Source: a virus. Taken from it: DNA of 64,000 bases. Under the pieces are notes generated by a model. It was not told the origin of the DNA, searched no databases, and saw nothing but the letters and a program-made list of their open reading frames with translations. Made by a program: the position numbers and the translations under genes. Where the stretch lies: the IMG/VR virus record IMGVR_UViG_3300037070_006409, positions 1 through 64,000 of that record; one strand, 5' to 3'. Shown here one piece after another: positions 14,089-59,150 of this stretch (the stretch's first letter is position 1; each line of letters starts with the position of its first letter).

Positions 14089-14661
14089 GTGCCGTCACGT
14101 GAGGAGGCTCGTCGGCTACGCGCCAAGGGCCTTCTGCATCGCGAAATCGCGAAACGACTCGGGGTGCATAGCTCGACGGTCTCGCGGTGGCTCAACGGTC
14201 GGAAGCCAGTGCCAGCCGGTAGCTCGACGCCATCGGCTCGCAAGGTCACCGAGACGCGCCGCGCTAACGGTCTCTGCCCTCGGTGCGGTCAGACCCCGGC
14301 ACCGGGGCGGGTGACGTGCGAGGCCTGTCTGGGGATTGACCGGGAGAAAGCCCGCGCCGCTCGTCGCCGGCTGGTCGCTGAGGTGATCGCCGCATATGGT
14401 GGAGAGTGCGTCTGCTGCGGCGAGAGCGAGCCGATGTTTCTCACCGTGGATCACCCGAACGACGACGGCGCGGATCACCGCCGCGAGCTGGGGATGGCGC
14501 GAGATCGCGGGCAGTCGGCTGGTAGCCACTTCTACATGTGGTTGAAGCGCGAAGGATTCCCGGCCAGGTTCCGGCTGCTGTGCTTCAACTGCAACTCAGG
14601 GCGTCATCGGAACGGCGGGTTGTGCCCGCACCAGCGTAAGCGGCTACGGGCGGTGGCCTAG
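14089..14661 (+). CDS. HNH homing-type endonuclease with N-terminal HTH
   Basis: A 190-residue protein from GTG 14089, one base after the connector stop. Residues 1-45 are a helix-turn-helix (EIAKRLGVHSSTVSRWLNGR). A CxxC zinc ribbon follows (CPRCGQTPAPG, then CEAC). The nuclease part has CVCCGE, LTVDHPNDDGADHRRE, FYMWLKREGFP and LLCFNCN, a family of phage HNH enzymes with CxxC and DH catalytic region. It is probably a selfish gene parked between connector and head-closure genes. Confidence 0.8.
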   Translation: MPSREEARRLRAKGLLHREIAKRLGVHSSTVSRWLNGRKPVPAGSSTPSARKVTETRRANGLCPRCGQTPAPGRVTCEACLGIDREKARAARRRLVAEVIAAYGGECVCCGESEPMFLTVDHPNDDGADHRRELGMARDRGQSAGSHFYMWLKREGFPARFRLLCFNCNSGRHRNGGLCPHQRKRLRAVA

Positions 14662-18287: not shown

Positions 18288-19783
18288 CGACCCTCCAGCG
18301 CCCCGACAATCCGGGCACCTACATCAGCCTCGTCGGCGAATCCGCCGTCCGGCCTCCTGCCAACGTCGCCTCCACCGTCGCCATCCCGATCGTCCACGAT
18401 TGGGGGCCGATCGGCTCCGACGAACCGGGCAGTGACGGCAAGCAGGGCGGCGTCCAGCTCTGCGAAGTCTTCGGCAACTTCGACGCTCTCTTCGGCAACT
18501 CCGACACCGACGGCCGCGATGCCGCACTCGGTGCCTTCGTCGGCCCTGGCGTCCCAGGTGAGCCGGGAGCAGGCGGCGTCCTGGTCTACCGCATGGCGAC
18601 CAGCGCCGCAAAAGCCTCGACCAAAACGATCAAAAACACGAAAGAAGCCCCCGAAGATGCGCTGGTCCTCACGGCGGTCTACAAGGGCGAGCGCGGCGAT
18701 CGGATCTCCTACGTCATCGACACCGATCCCACCGATGAAGCGAAGGCCCGGCTGCGCATCCGCTTCGACGGCGTGGTCCAGGAGCGCTACAGCTACGCCA
18801 AAACGGACATCACCGCCCTGGCGGCAGCGATCAACGCCCGCTCCAAGTACGTCACCGCCGAAGTGAAAAAATCCGGCATCGCGCTCGCCACCACCACCGG
18901 CACCGCGCTGGCCGGCGGCAACAACGGTGACGAAGTGACGGCGACCGAGTGGGAAGAAGCACTCTCGTCCTTCGAGTTGCAGGACTTCTCGATCTTCGCG
19001 CCATTCGACCTCACCGACGACGAAGTGATCGCGATGGTGCTCTCCTGGGTGGAAACCCAGGCCGCGCAGCAGACGCCGGTCTTCGCCGTCCTCGGCGGGA
19101 AAGACACCGAGGACCTCACCGAAGCGATCGAAAAAGCGGAAGACATCCGCAACGAGCACATCGTCCGCGTCGCCGGAGGGAAATTCCACGACGACTTCTT
19201 GGACAAGGACATCAGCACCTCCAAGCTCGCCGCCCGGATCGCGGGCATCCTCGCCGGCCGCGGCGAAGAGTCCTCGCTCACCTTCGCTCCGATCGCCGGT
19301 CTCAAGCAGGTCGGCTCCACGATCATCGGCACCGACGAGCTGGCGCTTGCCGCCGAACAGGGCCTGACCGTCTTCCGCCGGGCTTCACGTCCGAACACCG
19401 ACCTCGTGATCGCCAAGGGCGTCACGACCTACACGAATCAGACGGACCCGACGAAGCCCTACGAACTCTTTTCCGACCCGCGCATCGTCCGCGTCGCCGA
19501 CCTCTTCCTGCGGCGGATGAAGGAGTGGGGCGACGAGAACATCATTGGCCCGACGCGCGTCATCGAGACCACGAAGGCGGCTGTGAGGCAGCGCGGTATC
19601 GCCGAGCTGTCCGACCTCGAATCGCGAGGCATGATCCTGCCTGGCACGAGCGAGGCCGACAAACCCTTCTTCCGCATCGTGGACGACCCCGGCCCGAGCC
19701 TGGAAGACGCGATCGTCTTCGAGTTCGGCTGGAAGTTCGCCCGCACGACCAACTTCTTGATCGGCACCGGGAAGGTGAGGTAG
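18284..19783 (+). CDS. Tail sheath protein (PBSX XkdK-like)
   Basis: A 499-residue protein from GTG 18284. The N-terminus PGTYISLVGES, the strand-rich middle (VLTAVYKGERGDRISYVID) and the conserved C-terminal domain (FSDPRIVRVADLFLRRMKEW, then DPGPSLEDAIVFEFGWKFAR) match contractile-phage sheath subunits. The length fits the family. It forms the contractile outer tail layer around the tube encoded next, and it is the main evidence for myovirus morphology. Confidence 0.85.
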   Translation: MTTLQRPDNPGTYISLVGESAVRPPANVASTVAIPIVHDWGPIGSDEPGSDGKQGGVQLCEVFGNFDALFGNSDTDGRDAALGAFVGPGVPGEPGAGGVLVYRMATSAAKASTKTIKNTKEAPEDALVLTAVYKGERGDRISYVIDTDPTDEAKARLRIRFDGVVQERYSYAKTDITALAAAINARSKYVTAEVKKSGIALATTTGTALAGGNNGDEVTATEWEEALSSFELQDFSIFAPFDLTDDEVIAMVLSWVETQAAQQTPVFAVLGGKDTEDLTEAIEKAEDIRNEHIVRVAGGKFHDDFLDKDISTSKLAARIAGILAGRGEESSLTFAPIAGLKQVGSTIIGTDELALAAEQGLTVFRRASRPNTDLVIAKGVTTYTNQTDPTKPYELFSDPRIVRVADLFLRRMKEWGDENIIGPTRVIETTKAAVRQRGIAELSDLESRGMILPGTSEADKPFFRIVDDPGPSLEDAIVFEFGWKFARTTNFLIGTGKVR

Positions 19784-31894: not shown

Positions 31895-33328
31895 GTGCCG
31901 CTCGACCACGAATTCGATCGCGAAGACGTATTCCCGAGCTGGTTTCCTAACCGGCTCCAGGATTTCCTCAGCGCGGCTCGCACAGACCTTCGGCTGAGCC
32001 TCAAATCCTCGACGGTCGTCCAGATCATCCCCGACGAAGCTCTCGGCATCGCAGCGGTCGCCATAGATGGCCGCTGGCGCTTCATCACCAAAACGATCGA
32101 ACGGGTCCACCCCGGCGGTGCCAAAGGCACCTACGTCATCTGGGCGATCGCCACCGACAACGACGTTGACAACACGCCGGACCCCTTCACCGATCACACC
32201 GACTACGCCTTCCAGCTACGGATCACGAGCGGGGCGAAACCCACGGGTGAAGGCGTTGAGGTCGTGGAGAAGATCGGGGAGATCGACTGGAGCGGAACCG
32301 AAATCGAAGCTCTCCGCCAGACGCACAGCGCCGTCACCGGCCCGATGTTGGCGGACGGCGCTCTATCCAGCGAAGCACCCAGCGACATCACCTGGACGCG
32401 AGCAGCAAACGGAGGCTTGATCGCAGGCTTCAAGGCCAACTCGGTCGGCGCCACCGAGTTGGCCGACGAAGCCGTGGACACCAACGCGCTGATCGCCCTT
32501 GCGGTGACGACGGCGAAGATCGCGGCCGAAGCGATCACCGAAGCCAAGCTCGCCACCGGCTCGGTCGTCGCTGCCAAGATCGCTGCGCTAGCAGTCGAAA
32601 CCGCCAAGATTGCCGCGAAAGCGGTGACCGAAGGAAAGCTTGGCGACGAAGCGGTGAACACCGGCCAGATCAAGGCGCTGGCGGTCACCTCGGCCAAGCT
32701 CGCGGCCGAAGCGGTGACCGGGGAAAAGGTCGGCGCGCTGGCGATTACGGAAGCCAAGCTCGCGGCCGAAGCGGTTAGCACAGCCAAGATCGCAAATCTC
32801 GCCGTCACCGAAGCGAAGCTCGCAAACGAAGGCGTCGCCACGGGGAAGATCAAAAACCTCGCGGTGACCGCAGCCAAGCTCGCCGAAGCAGCGGTCGAAG
32901 AAGCGAAGATCGCGGATGGGGCGGTGACATCGCGAAAGGCGAAACTAACTTCCGGCCTAGCCAAAATGACGGCTGACAAAAAACCGGGCGAAGCCTATGA
33001 AGACGTTGAAGGGGCCAGTGCCACCTTCACGCTCGCGGTGAAATCGTTTGTAATTGTCGAGGCGGTATGGGATATGGAAGCCACCCCGACCGGCGAAATG
33101 ATCGGCACGATGCGCTTCGATGCTGCCGACAACGCAGCGACGGCTCTCCTCAAGTGCAAAGGGGAAGCGGCTGTCGATGGCGAACGTGCCACGGTGCCGC
33201 AGGTCTACCGCGAAGAACTCGCGGCTGGCGAACATACGATCAAGATGCGGGTCAAAAAGGTCGGCATCTCGGGCGTCTCGCTCTATGCGGCCGGAACCCG
33301 CTTCACGTATTTCGTCCACGCAGCCTAG
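31895..33328 (+). CDS. Tail fibre protein with decapeptide-like repeats
   Basis: A 477-residue protein from leaderless GTG 31895. The N-terminal 170 residues are the baseplate-attachment type (FLSAARTDLRLSLKSSTVVQIIPD). Residues about 190-345 are roughly 15 copies of a 10-residue unit (KIAAxAVTxA / KLAxEAVTxA), typical of trimeric beta-helix fibre shafts. The C-terminal 120 residues form a beta domain (FTLAVKSFVIVEAVWDMEAT, LYAAGTRFTYFVHAA), probably the receptor-binding tip. It converges on a minus-strand gene. Confidence 0.8.
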   Translation: MPLDHEFDREDVFPSWFPNRLQDFLSAARTDLRLSLKSSTVVQIIPDEALGIAAVAIDGRWRFITKTIERVHPGGAKGTYVIWAIATDNDVDNTPDPFTDHTDYAFQLRITSGAKPTGEGVEVVEKIGEIDWSGTEIEALRQTHSAVTGPMLADGALSSEAPSDITWTRAANGGLIAGFKANSVGATELADEAVDTNALIALAVTTAKIAAEAITEAKLATGSVVAAKIAALAVETAKIAAKAVTEGKLGDEAVNTGQIKALAVTSAKLAAEAVTGEKVGALAITEAKLAAEAVSTAKIANLAVTEAKLANEGVATGKIKNLAVTAAKLAEAAVEEAKIADGAVTSRKAKLTSGLAKMTADKKPGEAYEDVEGASATFTLAVKSFVIVEAVWDMEATPTGEMIGTMRFDAADNAATALLKCKGEAAVDGERATVPQVYREELAAGEHTIKMRVKKVGISGVSLYAAGTRFTYFVHAA

Positions 33329-33888
33329 TAGTTGATCGCCCGGTGGACTCTGAGGGGGTGCCGCCGCCGATGGTGCCTGCGATGGCGACGAGGTTTAGCA
33401 GGGCGGGCTTCATGCAGCCGGGCTTCACAGCCAGGGAGGGCCGGCTTAAACGTGAACTTCCAGTACATCGGATTCGATTCGTCCGGGCTGTGGCCCAGGT
33501 GCAGCACATGGCCGTACTCATGCAAGACGATTCGACAGCGCACTTCGCGGGCCTTGGCCGGGATTAGCCCCGGTTCGGCAACCAAATTGTTGAGGGCAAC
33601 GACTTCTTCGAGCTTGGCGATAGGCGTGATTTTGACTAGGCATTCGACCTCTTGCACCCCTTCGGGGAATTCACCGTCTCCGGCAAAGGTCGTCTGCCCG
33701 GCAACTCCAAGCGGCAGCGGGGCTTCTTCGAAGCGTTCAGACGAGCACCACAGCGAGCGTGACCAGCCCCAATATTCCTTCGCGACTTGGATGTCATCGT
33801 CCATCGTTGGAACTGCTGCGGAGGCTTGCCCCGCCACCGAGGCCAGCACAATGCCGAGGAGGAGGGCGCAGCGGAGAGGCTTGGTCAT
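33325..33888 (-). CDS. Secreted metzincin-like zinc metalloprotease
   Basis: A 187-residue protein on the minus strand. The first 24 residues are a clean signal peptide (MTKPLRCALLLGIVLASVAG, cleavage after QASA). Residues about 120-136 hold HEYGHVLHLGH, the zinc-binding metzincin core (HExxH, third His at +10), followed by NPMYW as a possible Met-turn. The G usual at position 8 of the motif is His. A His/Arg-rich tail follows. It has its own leader with the CACCACCCGA box, so it is probably expressed early. It may be a moron acting outside the host cell. Confidence 0.72.
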   Translation of the reverse strand: MTKPLRCALLLGIVLASVAGQASAAVPTMDDDIQVAKEYWGWSRSLWCSSERFEEAPLPLGVAGQTTFAGDGEFPEGVQEVECLVKITPIAKLEEVVALNNLVAEPGLIPAKAREVRCRIVLHEYGHVLHLGHSPDESNPMYWKFTFKPALPGCEARLHEARPAKPRRHRRHHRRRHPLRVHRAINY

Positions 33889-33940
33889 CGTTTCGCTCCT
33901 TCAGGAGTCGGGTTCGGGTGGTGGCCCAGATAATAGCAGG
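33889..33940 (-). promoter_or_regulatory. Promoter and leader of the metalloprotease gene, with leader box
   Basis: Reading on the minus strand: TATTAT (about 33928-33933) as -10, then the leader box CACCACCCGA (33914-33923) followed by ACCCGAC, then GAAGGAGCGAAACG before ATG 33888. The same order (-10, box, GGAG, GCGAA) is present at 36326, 40697, 50369 and 59106 on the plus strand. Confidence 0.7.
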
Positions 33941-33942
33941 CA

Positions 33943-33957
33943 GGTAAGAAACTTACC
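33943..33957. promoter_or_regulatory. Palindromic operator GGTAAGAAACTTACC
   Basis: A 15-bp palindrome with 6-bp arms (GGTAAG/CTTACC) lies between the divergent metalloprotease and endolysin promoters. A second copy with the same arms is at 50335-50349, also upstream of a leader-box promoter. It is a probable repressor or activator site. Confidence 0.6.
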
Positions 33958-35325: not shown

Positions 35326-35759
35326 TCTTTGGATATACCTTCCCCGAGGTTCGCAAGGCGGTGATGTCCTTCGCCATCTTCGCCCTCACCACCCTCGCCT
35401 TGGTCTTCGTCTACGACCCCGGCATCAAGGACGCGATCATCGTGGTGCTCGGCAACGGGTTCGCGGTCGCAGCCGTCTTCTACGCCCCCAAGTTCTCGGT
35501 CGAAGACCTGACCAAGATGGTCGGGCAGCTATTCGGCTCGGTGCAGTCTCTGCTCACCTTCTTCGTCGTCATCGACCCGAACGTGTGGGTCGTCATCGGC
35601 GCCGTCGTCTCGCTGATCCCCATCGGCTACGCCGTCTTCAAGACGAAGAACCTGGAGCCGATCAACGCTCTCGTGCCATCGCCGGAGTTCTTCGGGCCAC
35701 CCGAATCGAGCGCCGAAGCGAAGAAGACGACAACCGCTTCTGCTCCACCCGAGGGGTAG
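35322..35759 (+). CDS. Putative holin
   Basis: A 145-residue membrane protein. Hydrophobic helices at about 12-33, 38-54, 70-83 and 85-106, with a polar Ser/Thr/Pro tail. Located between endolysin and lysozyme-like genes, it is the best holin candidate. It would form membrane lesions that release or activate the lysins. The start ATG 35322 overlaps the HNH stop. Confidence 0.7.
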   Translation: MIFGYTFPEVRKAVMSFAIFALTTLALVFVYDPGIKDAIIVVLGNGFAVAAVFYAPKFSVEDLTKMVGQLFGSVQSLLTFFVVIDPNVWVVIGAVVSLIPIGYAVFKTKNLEPINALVPSPEFFGPPESSAEAKKTTTASAPPEG

Positions 35760-36192: not shown

Positions 36193-36222
36193 CCTTGGGC
36201 GGCCGCAGTAGCGGCGAGCAGG

Positions 36223-36228
36223 TAGACT
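36223..36228 (+). promoter_or_regulatory. -10 box TAGACT for candidate small RNA
   Basis: TAGACT after the lysozyme-like gene, with no start codon in leaderless position. The same hexamer precedes three leaderless genes. Transcription would start near 36235-36236. Confidence 0.5.
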
Positions 36229-36267
36229 GCTGTCTGAGACCGATCGCCTTCTTCGCTTCGGCGGGGT

Positions 36268-36277
36268 TCGGGTGGTG
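36268..36277 (-). promoter_or_regulatory. Leader box in inverted orientation
   Basis: TCGGGTGGTG on the plus strand is CACCACCCGA on the minus strand. On that strand it is preceded by CTATCC and followed by ACCCC and GCGAAG, as in the 40697 leader. No plausible minus-strand gene follows it to the left. Confidence 0.6.
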
Positions 36278-36287
36278 ATCGGATAGC

Positions 36288-36314
36288 AAACGGGCGCCCC
36301 AGGGCGTCCGTTTT
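36288..36314 (+). terminator. Strong intrinsic terminator
   Basis: AAACGGGCGCC pairs with GGCGTCCGTTT over 11 positions (one G-U) with a 4-5 nt loop, followed by a T tract. It ends the late transcript carrying the lysis genes and, if real, the candidate small RNA. Confidence 0.85.
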
Positions 36315-36325
36315 GCGTTTGATGG

Positions 36326-36369
36326 TAAGTTTCAGACCACCACCCGAATCCGCTACAACAGGAGGCACC
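36326..36369 (+). promoter_or_regulatory. Promoter and leader-box UTR of recT
   Basis: TAAGTT (36326-36331) as -10 in the context GGTAAGTTTCAGACC. The leader box CACCACCCGA is at 36338-36347, then AATCC, then AGGAGG (36360-36365) before ATG 36370. Confidence 0.7.
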
Positions 36370-37314
36370 ATGAGCACGAAGGCGACGACCCCGGAGATCA
36401 TCTCCCTCGCCAGCACGTTCTCGGCCGACGAACAGGCCGCCATCGCGAACTTCGCGGGCGTCACCATCGACCACCCCTCGTTCCTGCCCTACCTTGGCAT
36501 CGCAAGCCATCTCGGCCTCTCGCCTCTTCTGGGCGAGATCTGGCTGATCGAGACCCAAACCTTCGACCGCAGCACCGGGCAGTGGGTCGCGGCTCTGCGC
36601 CCTGCGGTCGGCCGCGATGGCTTCCTCAAAGTCGCGCGGCGCAGCAAGAATGTCATGGTCCCGCCGCGCTCCAACGTCGTCTGCGCCAACGACTACTTCA
36701 AGTTCACCGACAAGGGCGGCGATGTCGAGATCGAGCACTCCGTGACCCTCGCTGGCAGCGATGAGGAGAACGAGCTCGCCCATGCCCGCGGGCCAGTCCT
36801 CGGAGCATGGGCCAAGCTCTACTACCGCGACCGCACTCCCCCCTTCTTCTACTACGCCCCGATCGAGGAGCACGGCAAGCGTGGTCCGACCGCTCAGGAC
36901 GGCGACGAGCCCGTAGATGATTGGATCGGCGCCTGGAGCTACACGCACGCGATGATCGCCAAGTGCGCGCAGTCCTACGTGCTGCGCATCGGCGCCTCGA
37001 TCACCGGGGTCGTTCCCGCCGACGAGATCCATGGCATCGAGATCATCGGGGGCGGGGCTGGCAACGCCTCTAAGGCTCGCTCCGTCCCGGCTGACAGCGA
37101 GGGGATTGTGCACGCGTTGGAGAACGTCTCCGACGAGACCAAGGAGAAGCTGGTCGCCGCCCTGGCGCGGGTCAACGAGCTGTCCCCGTTCTCCTGGGCG
37201 ACGGCGAAGGTCTCCGTGGTCCTCGCCGAGGCCGACGAAGAGGCCGCCAAGGGCGTGCTCACCGACATCGAGCGCGAGATTGAGAAGCTCGAAAAGGATG
37301 AGGTCCGCGCGTGA
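36370..37314 (+). CDS. recT: RecT-family single-strand annealing protein
   Basis: A 314-residue protein from ATG 36370. It has the RecT hallmarks YLGIASHLGLSPLLGEIWLIET, then AVGRDGFLKVARR, then WAKLYYRDRTPPFFYYAPIEE and AMIAKCAQSYVLR. RecT anneals resected DNA strands during phage recombination. It overlaps the downstream exonuclease gene (GTGA), forming the usual annealase-exonuclease pair. The C-terminus is an acidic helix. Confidence 0.85.
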   Translation: MSTKATTPEIISLASTFSADEQAAIANFAGVTIDHPSFLPYLGIASHLGLSPLLGEIWLIETQTFDRSTGQWVAALRPAVGRDGFLKVARRSKNVMVPPRSNVVCANDYFKFTDKGGDVEIEHSVTLAGSDEENELAHARGPVLGAWAKLYYRDRTPPFFYYAPIEEHGKRGPTAQDGDEPVDDWIGAWSYTHAMIAKCAQSYVLRIGASITGVVPADEIHGIEIIGGGAGNASKARSVPADSEGIVHALENVSDETKEKLVAALARVNELSPFSWATAKVSVVLAEADEEAAKGVLTDIEREIEKLEKDEVRA

Positions 37315-40696: not shown

Positions 40697-40733
40697 TATC
40701 CTTCTGCCACCCGAACCCAGAAGGAGCGAAGCG
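40697..40733 (+). promoter_or_regulatory. Promoter and leader-box UTR of the replication operon
   Basis: TATCCT (about 40697-40702), then the box variant CCACCCGA followed by ACCC, then AGAAGGAGCGAAGCG before ATG 40734. The ribosome site AAGGAG is at 40721-40726. Confidence 0.65.
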
Positions 40734-43027: not shown

Positions 43028-43069
43028 TAAGCTCCTGACCACTTCACCACCCGACGATAGGAGGATGCG
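43028..43069 (+). promoter_or_regulatory. Promoter and leader-box UTR
   Basis: TAAGCT (43028-43033) in the context GGTAAGCTCCTGACC. The leader box CACCACCCGA is at 43045-43054, then AGGAGG (43059-43064) before ATG 43070. It is the same layout as 56629, which suggests recent common origin. Confidence 0.7.
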
Positions 43070-43604: not shown

Positions 43605-44636
43605 ATGAGCACCACCACCGTCAGCCGCACCTCGAACACCACGACACTCCGCATCGGGCCGGTGAAGACGCCGATCGCCCTCTACAAGATCACGAGCGAG
43701 TCGGCCGCGAAGGCCCGCAAGTGGGACCTCGCCGATGGCGACGGCGAACCGTGGTCCCCCCCCGCCGCGGCCGCCACTCCGCCCGAGCCGCAGGGTGAGC
43801 CGCTCGGCGCCCCCGCCGCGCCCGTCGGTGGGGCAGTAGCAGGCGGCCCGCCGCCGGCTGCCGGCGAAGGCGAGGAGCCGCCGCAGGGTGAGCCGCAGGG
43901 CGGTGGCGCTCCGATCGGCGGAGCCGTTCCGCCCGCGGGGCAGGCCGAGGAGCCGCCGGTCGGTGAGGAGGAGGCCGAGGAGGAGGCACAGCCGCGCAAG
44001 GGCATCCGCAAGGCCGACGGCGCCTTCGTTGACCTCACCGATCAGATCGGGGAGATCGCCGAGCGCGCCACGCTGGAAGAGATGCGGGTTGTCTCCTTCA
44101 TCGACGTGCGCCACGTGCCGCGGGAGCGGGTCATCGCCGCCTACTACCTGGCAGGCGACTCGATGAACGAGGCGGCCAGCGCCGATTCCGACACCTGGCC
44201 CCCCGGCCGCCTGCTCCGCGTGATTAGCACGGCGATGCGCTCCACCCAGAAGGTCGCCGTGGTCCGCTTCACGAAGCGCAAAGGGCAGGCGCTCGGCGTG
44301 CTCACCTGGCGCCGCGACGGTGCCCTCGTGCTGCTGGAGCTGGCCTTCGCCGCTCAGGTCCGGCGCCCGAACGGCAAATGCCTCGCACACACGAAGGCCG
44401 AGGTGGTCTCCCCCGGTGCGGTCAAGGGCGCGATCGAGCTGATCGAGGCGATGGCCGCCAAGCGCGACTCCCTCGACGGCATCCGCGACGCGAGGGTCGT
44501 GATGGAGGACGAACTGATCGCCCGCGCCGAGGCCGGCGAGCTAGACGACTACGAGCTGGTCGCCGACCTCGACGTGGCCGAGGAGACCGAGCAGCTCGGC
44601 GCTCTCCTGGCAGAGGCCGCGAAGGTGACTGCCTGA
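43605..44636 (+). CDS. Ku-like DNA end-binding protein with Pro/Gly-rich insertion
   Basis: A 343-residue protein. The N-terminal 45 residues match the Ku start (SNTTTLRIGPVKTPIALYKIT). Residues about 48-130 are low complexity (Pro, Gly, Glu). The core resumes with GIRKADGAFVDLTDQIGEIAE, VVSFIDVRHVPRERVIAAYYLAGD, VAVVRFTKRKGQALGVLTWRRDGALVLLELAFAAQVR, as in bacterial Ku. Ku rings thread DNA ends and recruit the ligase LigD, which is not present here. Phage Ku genes are known from mycobacteriophages Omega and Corndog. The role in end protection or circularisation is inferred. Confidence 0.75.
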   Translation: MSTTTVSRTSNTTTLRIGPVKTPIALYKITSESAAKARKWDLADGDGEPWSPPAAAATPPEPQGEPLGAPAAPVGGAVAGGPPPAAGEGEEPPQGEPQGGGAPIGGAVPPAGQAEEPPVGEEEAEEEAQPRKGIRKADGAFVDLTDQIGEIAERATLEEMRVVSFIDVRHVPRERVIAAYYLAGDSMNEAASADSDTWPPGRLLRVISTAMRSTQKVAVVRFTKRKGQALGVLTWRRDGALVLLELAFAAQVRRPNGKCLAHTKAEVVSPGAVKGAIELIEAMAAKRDSLDGIRDARVVMEDELIARAEAGELDDYELVADLDVAEETEQLGALLAEAAKVTA

Positions 44637-50334: not shown

Positions 50335-50349
50335 GGTAAGCTTCTTACC
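50335..50349. promoter_or_regulatory. Palindromic operator GGTAAGCTTCTTACC
   Basis: Same 6-bp arms as 33943-33957, ending 19 nt upstream of the -10 box at 50369. It covers the expected -35 region of this promoter, so a bound protein would control it. Confidence 0.6.
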
Positions 50350-50368: not shown

Positions 50369-50417
50369 TAGGCTGCCCCCAGCACCACCCGAACCCGACT
50401 TCCTGATGGAGGCGAAG
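50369..50417 (+). promoter_or_regulatory. Promoter and leader-box UTR
   Basis: TAGGCT (50369-50374), then 8 nt, then CACCACCCGA (50383-50392) followed by ACCCGACTTCC, TGATGGAGGCGAAG and ATG 50418. It closely matches the leader at 59106-59150. Confidence 0.7.
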
Positions 50418-50453
50418 ATGACTACGATTTCTCGCGAACACGACGGCAGCTAG
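50418..50453 (+). CDS. 11-residue leader peptide or truncated gene start
   Basis: ATG 50418 has the full leader-box UTR and GGAGG site, yet encodes only MTTISREHDGS before TAG. Four bases later a LAGLIDADG gene begins. Either it is a leader peptide, or the homing gene has landed just after the start of a gene whose remainder is now lost or detached. Confidence 0.4.
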   Translation: MTTISREHDGS

Positions 50454-56628: not shown

Positions 56629-56668
56629 TAAGGTCCTGACCCTCACCACCCGACCCTAGGAGGAGCGC
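56629..56668 (+). promoter_or_regulatory. Promoter and leader-box UTR
   Basis: TAAGGT (56629-56634) in GGTAAGGTCCTGACC, the leader box CACCACCCGA at 56644-56653, AGGAGGAG (56658-56665) and ATG 56669. It closely matches 43028-43069. Confidence 0.7.
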
Positions 56669-59105: not shown

Positions 59106-59150
59106 TAGGCTACCGCCATCACCCGAACCTGATGTGCTGATGGAGGCGAT
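59106..59150 (+). promoter_or_regulatory. Promoter and leader-box UTR
   Basis: TAGGCT (59106-59111), 5-8 nt, then the box variant CATCACCCGA (59117-59126) followed by ACC, then TGATGGAGGCGAT and ATG 59151. The -10, spacing and GGAGGCGA match the 50369 leader. Confidence 0.65.

Follow-up and report, generated by a model that had tools for sequence, protein, structure and literature searches.

Some bacterial small RNAs (sRNAs), among them FasX and the C-rich Rsa RNAs of S. aureus, bind mRNAs by base pairing at the 5' end or the Shine-Dalgarno sequence. In phages P1 and P7, the c4 antisense RNA blocks translation of a phage mRNA through looped segments that pair around its ribosome site (PMC12197685). 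Phage antisense RNAs for which we found descriptions have either one or a few targets, or host genes as targets. Cluster K mycobacteriophages carry 11 to 19 copies of a start-associated sequence (SAS; GGGATAGGAGCCC) at ribosome sites, and some of these boxes lie downstream of 17-bp imperfect inverted repeats, termed ESAS (PMC3203893). Four K1 phages have a single inverted SAS copy without an obvious gene link, and the original study did not decide between RNA and protein as the binder (PMC3203893); the role of SAS is still termed unknown in later papers (PMC11373665, PMC12699233). No published RNA partner of SAS was found.

The DNA analyzed here (the window, 64,000 nucleotides) covers the first 64 kb of a virus record that is 78,872 bp long and, since its ends repeat (positions 1 to 297 are a direct repeat of 78572 to 78868), near complete. 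The phage is contractile tailed, with sheath and baseplate genes, and no close relatives were found among GenBank phages. A Ku-like DNA end-binding protein (PF02735) is encoded at 43605 to 44636. In the stretch between the last lysis-region gene and recT (36193 to 36369) lies a unit that is probably a plus-strand phage sRNA with its own promoter and terminator; it would pair in trans with about seven to nine leaders and most likely repress their translation as a set (Table 1).

Table 1. Predicted sRNA unit and leader boxes (record coordinates for the two leaders outside the window)
Feature	Position	Strand	Remark
-10 box TAGACT of predicted sRNA	36223-36228	+	TAG[AG]CT rare, mostly upstream of gene starts
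Predicted sRNA, ~79 nt	36236-36314	+	5' end inferred; fold z -3.3
9-bp stem around UUCG-capped 6-bp stem and open antisense segment	36240-36282	+	predicted fold
CTTCGC, possible second pairing arm	36251-36256	+	for GCGAAG/GCGAA of several leaders, between Shine-Dalgarno sequence and start codon
Anti-box GGGTTCGGGTGGTG	36264-36277	+	complementary to leader box
Exposed seed UUCGGGU	36267-36273	+	unpaired probabilities 0.51-1.0
Intrinsic-terminator-like hairpin, then TTTT/GCGTTT	36288-36313	+	-19 kcal/mol, z -3.4
Leader box CACCACCCGAACCC, metalloprotease-like gene 33325-33888	33910-33923	-	
Leader box CACCACCCGAATCC, recT (36370-37314)	36338-36351	+	also possible cis pairing with 36264-36277
Leader box, replication operon (gene 40734; helicase loader 41570)	40709-40718	+	
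Leader box CACCACCCGAACCC, upstream of 50418 mini-ORF and HNH gene 50458	50383-50396	+	
Leader box ACCCGAACCT, gene 59151	59121-59130	+	
Weaker box CACCACCCGA, upstream of gene 43070	43045-43054	+	
Weaker box CACCACCCGA, upstream of gene 56669	56644-56653	+	
Leader box outside window, same record	72797		one mismatch
Leader box outside window, same record	73303		exact

The unit was first proposed in a sequence-only reading, and its coordinates were correct on recheck. The TAGACT -10 box of that proposal is credible because TAG[AG]CT is rare (12 sites, counting both strands) and 7 of the 12 lie just upstream of gene starts; it is a promoter type used by the phage itself (compare GTAGACTGCTGCTATG at 2803 with GTAGACTGCTGTCTGAG at the sRNA locus). 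Folding reproduced the UUCG-capped hairpin within a 9-bp stem: positions 36236 to 36314 are predicted to form this stem, the capped 6-bp stem and an 11-bp terminator hairpin, and 1 of 200 shuffles folded equally well. Without the terminator the hairpin is weaker (z = -1.8). The terminator proposed after the hairpin was likewise borne out (Table 1), and at the sequence level the unit has its own promoter (TAGACT) and an intrinsic terminator hairpin. The segment at 36264 to 36273 had been described as unpaired; UUCGGGU is indeed mostly open, but GGG (36264 to 36266) is held in weak G-U pairs. Rfam covariance models, including that of the c4 antisense RNA, gave no match at the locus. Elsewhere in the window, at 146, 2803, 31883 and 52602, TAG[AG]CT ends ∼6 to 7 nt upstream of start codons, which suggests leaderless transcripts.

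In the predicted sRNA, GGGGTTCGGGTGGTG is exactly complementary, in reverse, to a box (CACCACCCGAACCC or a variant of it) that stands in five leaders in the window and two elsewhere in the record, and in a weaker form, shortened to CACCACCCGA, in two more. Exact copies of ACCCGAACCC stand at 33910 (minus strand), 40709 and 50387 (both plus strand), with an exact inverted copy at 36264 (minus strand); copies with one change, with which G-U pairing is still possible, stand at 36342 (recT) and 59121 (both plus strand). These positions confirm the earlier claim that the anti-box is exact for the leaders of the metalloprotease, the replication operon and the 50418 unit and pairs through G-U in those of recT and 59151, and the box does lie close upstream of the ribosome site, 8 to 18 nt from the Shine-Dalgarno sequence. 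By chance, the 121-nt gap would be expected to hold 5.5e-7 copies of the 14-mer and 1.5e-4 of the 10-mer. The box keeps the sense orientation in all leaders, with genes on either strand, and the only inverted box without a gene is that at 36264, so that the phage combines many sense copies upstream of starts with a single inverted copy. Nearly all boxes follow a -10-like TAnnnT by 5 to 12 nt, often with a preceding TG, and because of this spacing the box is predicted to start at or just past the mRNA 5' end. The same search found no recurrent leader box in the controls Kumao, Quantum, Giles, A and B or in random loci.

The antisense sRNA reading is supported by independent covariation in a distant phage, G003 (68,798 bp), which was located by a scan with the exonuclease adjoining recT, without use of the box; the region to test was set before its sequence was viewed. 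Gene order is shared between the two phages, and their proteins are 25 to 42% identical (terminase, 33%; portal, 32%; exonuclease, 38%; recT, 25%). The G003 box, CCGACCAAGGAG, differs from that of the window phage, precedes about ten genes including recT, usually at −17 to −20 relative to the start codon, and contains the Shine-Dalgarno sequence. An exact inverted copy of the CCGACCAAGGAG 12-mer occurs at 19396 to 19409, in the gap between the lysis/HNH region and recT, where 1.6e-5 copies would be expected; complementarity between the putative sRNA and its targets is thus beyond chance in both phages. This is the sole inverted box in G003 without a downstream gene, the other minus-strand box (36420) preceding a minus-strand gene, like 33910 in the window phage. 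A -10 box TAGCCT, a hexamer that occurs nine times in the whole record and before gene starts in six of these, lies 32 nt upstream of the inverted box, which is followed by a strong terminator hairpin (z −6.2) and then by the recT leader with its own box. A shadow ORF placed over the locus by a crude gene caller overlaps the real HNH end and recT start and was set aside. Place, promoter, hairpin and terminator are retained in both phages, while the antisense segment tracks the local box.

Covariation between the RNA segment and the leader box, sought as a check on the first proposal, is therefore positive between these two phages, and the idea that a single RNA matching several leaders controls a regulon gains support from it. 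The comparison rests on two phages because the sequences of relatives A and B (sheath ∼70% identity) stop short of the sRNA locus. No close relative of the locus was found among GenBank phages, in GTDB genomes, or by IMG/VR alignment with recT, terminase, helicase loader or capsid; an IMG/VR scan with the 14-mer gave mostly chance matches, and loci L143-L146 and terminase relatives L004-L006 offered no useful parallel.

A 15-bp palindrome, GGTAAGnTTCTTACC, lies upstream of three box leaders (33943 to 33957, 50335 to 50349 and record position 72754), half-like copies occur at 36324, 43026 and 56627, and TGGTAAGnT (an extended -10) occurs in three other box leaders; these sites probably serve a phage regulator as its operators or promoters. 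Relative A retains the palindrome at 14375, and its counterpart of the 72797 leader has the palindrome along with TGCTATnCT, ACCCGAA and the ribosome site. The box is under constraint, as these parts are kept while the remainder and the spacers have changed. The leader at 73303 departs from the rule that the box follows a -10-like TAnnnT: it repeats the 50387 leader exactly over 35 nt and is fused to the end of the preceding gene. The copy (50387 to 50421, identical to record positions 73303 to 73337) stands at another gene's start without a promoter and represents a recent spread of a leader cassette via recombination. Given the palindrome, protein control of the promoters of its three leaders is likely, and the box could itself be a DNA site for a phage protein that was inverted between the lysis genes and recT by chance. 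We consider this highly improbable, since the box keeps its sense orientation ahead of genes on both strands and, in G003, includes the Shine-Dalgarno sequence and varies little in its distance from the start codon, which points to RNA rather than DNA recognition.

If transcribed as predicted, the sRNA would expose in its hairpin a segment complementary to the box in the leaders of recT, the replication operon, the metalloprotease, the HNH unit and others. In the cell, the seed UUCGGGU would meet ACCCGAA, its complement and the part common to the strong leaders, at the mRNA 5' end, and the helix can be extended to 14 bp. In several leaders, GCGAAG next to the start codon is a possible partner of the CTTCGC arm, whose extra pairing beats that of a shuffled arm in four of seven leaders (p 0.007 to 0.037). 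Most leaders have a favorable predicted net pairing energy, that of 50418 being the best (−20 kcal/mol). Against the model, opening the hairpin costs ∼22 kcal/mol, and net energies are near zero for 73303, 43045 and 56644. When every gene start is ranked by duplex energy, the GC-rich sequence makes the order noisy, but the box leaders nonetheless rank high. Separately, the end of gene 35322 (35697 to 35730) is complementary over ∼25 nt to the sRNA hairpin (36244 to 36275); this pairing would give a long-range helix in the lysis mRNA, and such matches are not rare in the genome. The end of this gene also matches the sRNA complement over 34 nt, which was set aside as unremarkable (7.4% of genome tiles equal it).

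In the window phage, the sRNA would cover the leader and clamp both sides of the Shine-Dalgarno sequence, whereas in G003 the antisense segment would cover that sequence directly. Because the window-phage box precedes the Shine-Dalgarno sequence without overlapping it, we infer the mode of control there: translational repression would be the simplest outcome, and 5'-end protection is possible. In a read-through RNA, the anti-box would pair in cis with the recT leader, and cis and trans control may coexist. The element might also act in cis only, the anti-box in the lysis read-through RNA hiding the recT leader and the other matches being a by-product of shared leaders. An RNA from 36236 to 36390 does fold at −75.8 kcal/mol with the anti-box paired to the recT box around the terminator, the recT box is 62 nt downstream of the anti-box, and recT carries the box in G003 also. 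Nevertheless, we regard a purely cis-acting element as unlikely: in both phages a -10 lies directly upstream of the anti-box and a terminator separates it from recT, and the anti-box matches the shared box, fitting other leaders of the window phage better than that of recT (G-U).

Several features favor the plus strand. Its RNA folds better than that of the minus strand by 15.8 kcal/mol in the window phage and 8.5 kcal/mol in G003, a difference reached by 0.25% and 2% of shuffles, respectively, and in both phages the advantage comes from G-U pairs. Within 70 nt past the inverted box there is no start codon in either phage. The sequence-only reading had noted CTATCC, the box and GCGAAG in this order on the minus strand, which is correct: CTATCC-N7-ACCCGAACCC-N7-GCGAAG has the spacing of the 40709 leader, the full string TGCTATCC-GATCACC-ACCCGAACCC-N7-GCGAAG lies in leader register, and TGCTAT stands upstream of the box in other leaders too. 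The locus could therefore be a minus-strand leader or promoter cassette, either a relic or the working promoter of an antisense transcript over the lysis genes, but this is improbable. Besides the missing start codon and the far worse minus-strand fold, the terminator is oriented for the plus strand, and at the matching place G003 has no minus-strand -10 and no leader sign except the box, yet the inverted box is retained and altered along with the leaders. The alternative first put forward, an inverted relic, probably holds as to origin, as the minus-strand arrangement suggests that the sRNA unit arose through inversion of a leader; present inactivity is disfavored because the inverted box stays in place and follows the changed box in the distant phage.

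In the Cluster K phage Anaya, a long hairpin holds the inverted SAS (59870) in its apical loop. At the Cluster K loci L160 (JF704106 59849-59901), L161-L170, L172, L176 and L182, the single inverted copy sits in the loop of a covarying plus-strand hairpin pair, although some subclusters retain the hairpin without the exact loop. When the hairpins of 14 K phages were aligned, 14 of 29 pairs had changed on both sides and 95% of cells were paired, which none of 500 shuffles reached; G-U pairs are possible on the plus strand only. The hairpin is also present in Ekdilam, Cain, Syra333, Shandong1, Fefferhead and SirPhilip but has no exact anti-SAS loop there, and Ekdilam and Cain retain SAS itself without an exact inverted copy; these phages argue against a straightforward extension of the model to Cluster K. 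In Adephagia, the hairpin is located in the 92-93 gap, where late transcription begins according to RNA sequencing (PMC11373665).

Like the window phage, K1 phages thus combine a short conserved box at or beside the Shine-Dalgarno sequence of many genes with one inverted copy. The two systems differ in sequence (GGGATAGGAGCCC versus ACCCGAACCC) and gene context. Where some SAS boxes follow the 17-bp imperfect repeats of ESAS, three boxes of the window phage follow a different, 15-bp palindrome, GGTAAGnTTCTTACC. The parallel is a lead, not proof. We tentatively suggest, as a possibility that we rate below even, that a number of unrelated phages with high-GC hosts, Cluster K among them, run a gene set via a shared leader box and a single antisense RNA, possibly late, to shut down early genes. 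If true, this would explain SAS, a question that has stood since 2011. Cluster K phages grow on Mycobacterium smegmatis in the laboratory, and the sRNA reading makes the still unexplained SAS accessible to a concrete and inexpensive test.

The sequence evidence supports the locus as a phage antisense RNA of a known kind with an unusual set of targets. The predicted RNA would resemble c4 in being a phage RNA with looped pairing segments directed at the ribosome site of phage mRNA, but c4 has one target (ant), whereas the predicted sRNA has a set of leaders. With FasX and the Rsa RNAs it shares a short loop seed for the leader or Shine-Dalgarno region of several mRNAs; the targets of those RNAs are host genes, whereas those of the predicted sRNA seem to be near-identical boxes within one phage. 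A single RNA that fits a box common to many transcripts of the same phage would be the RNA equivalent of a regulator and its operators.
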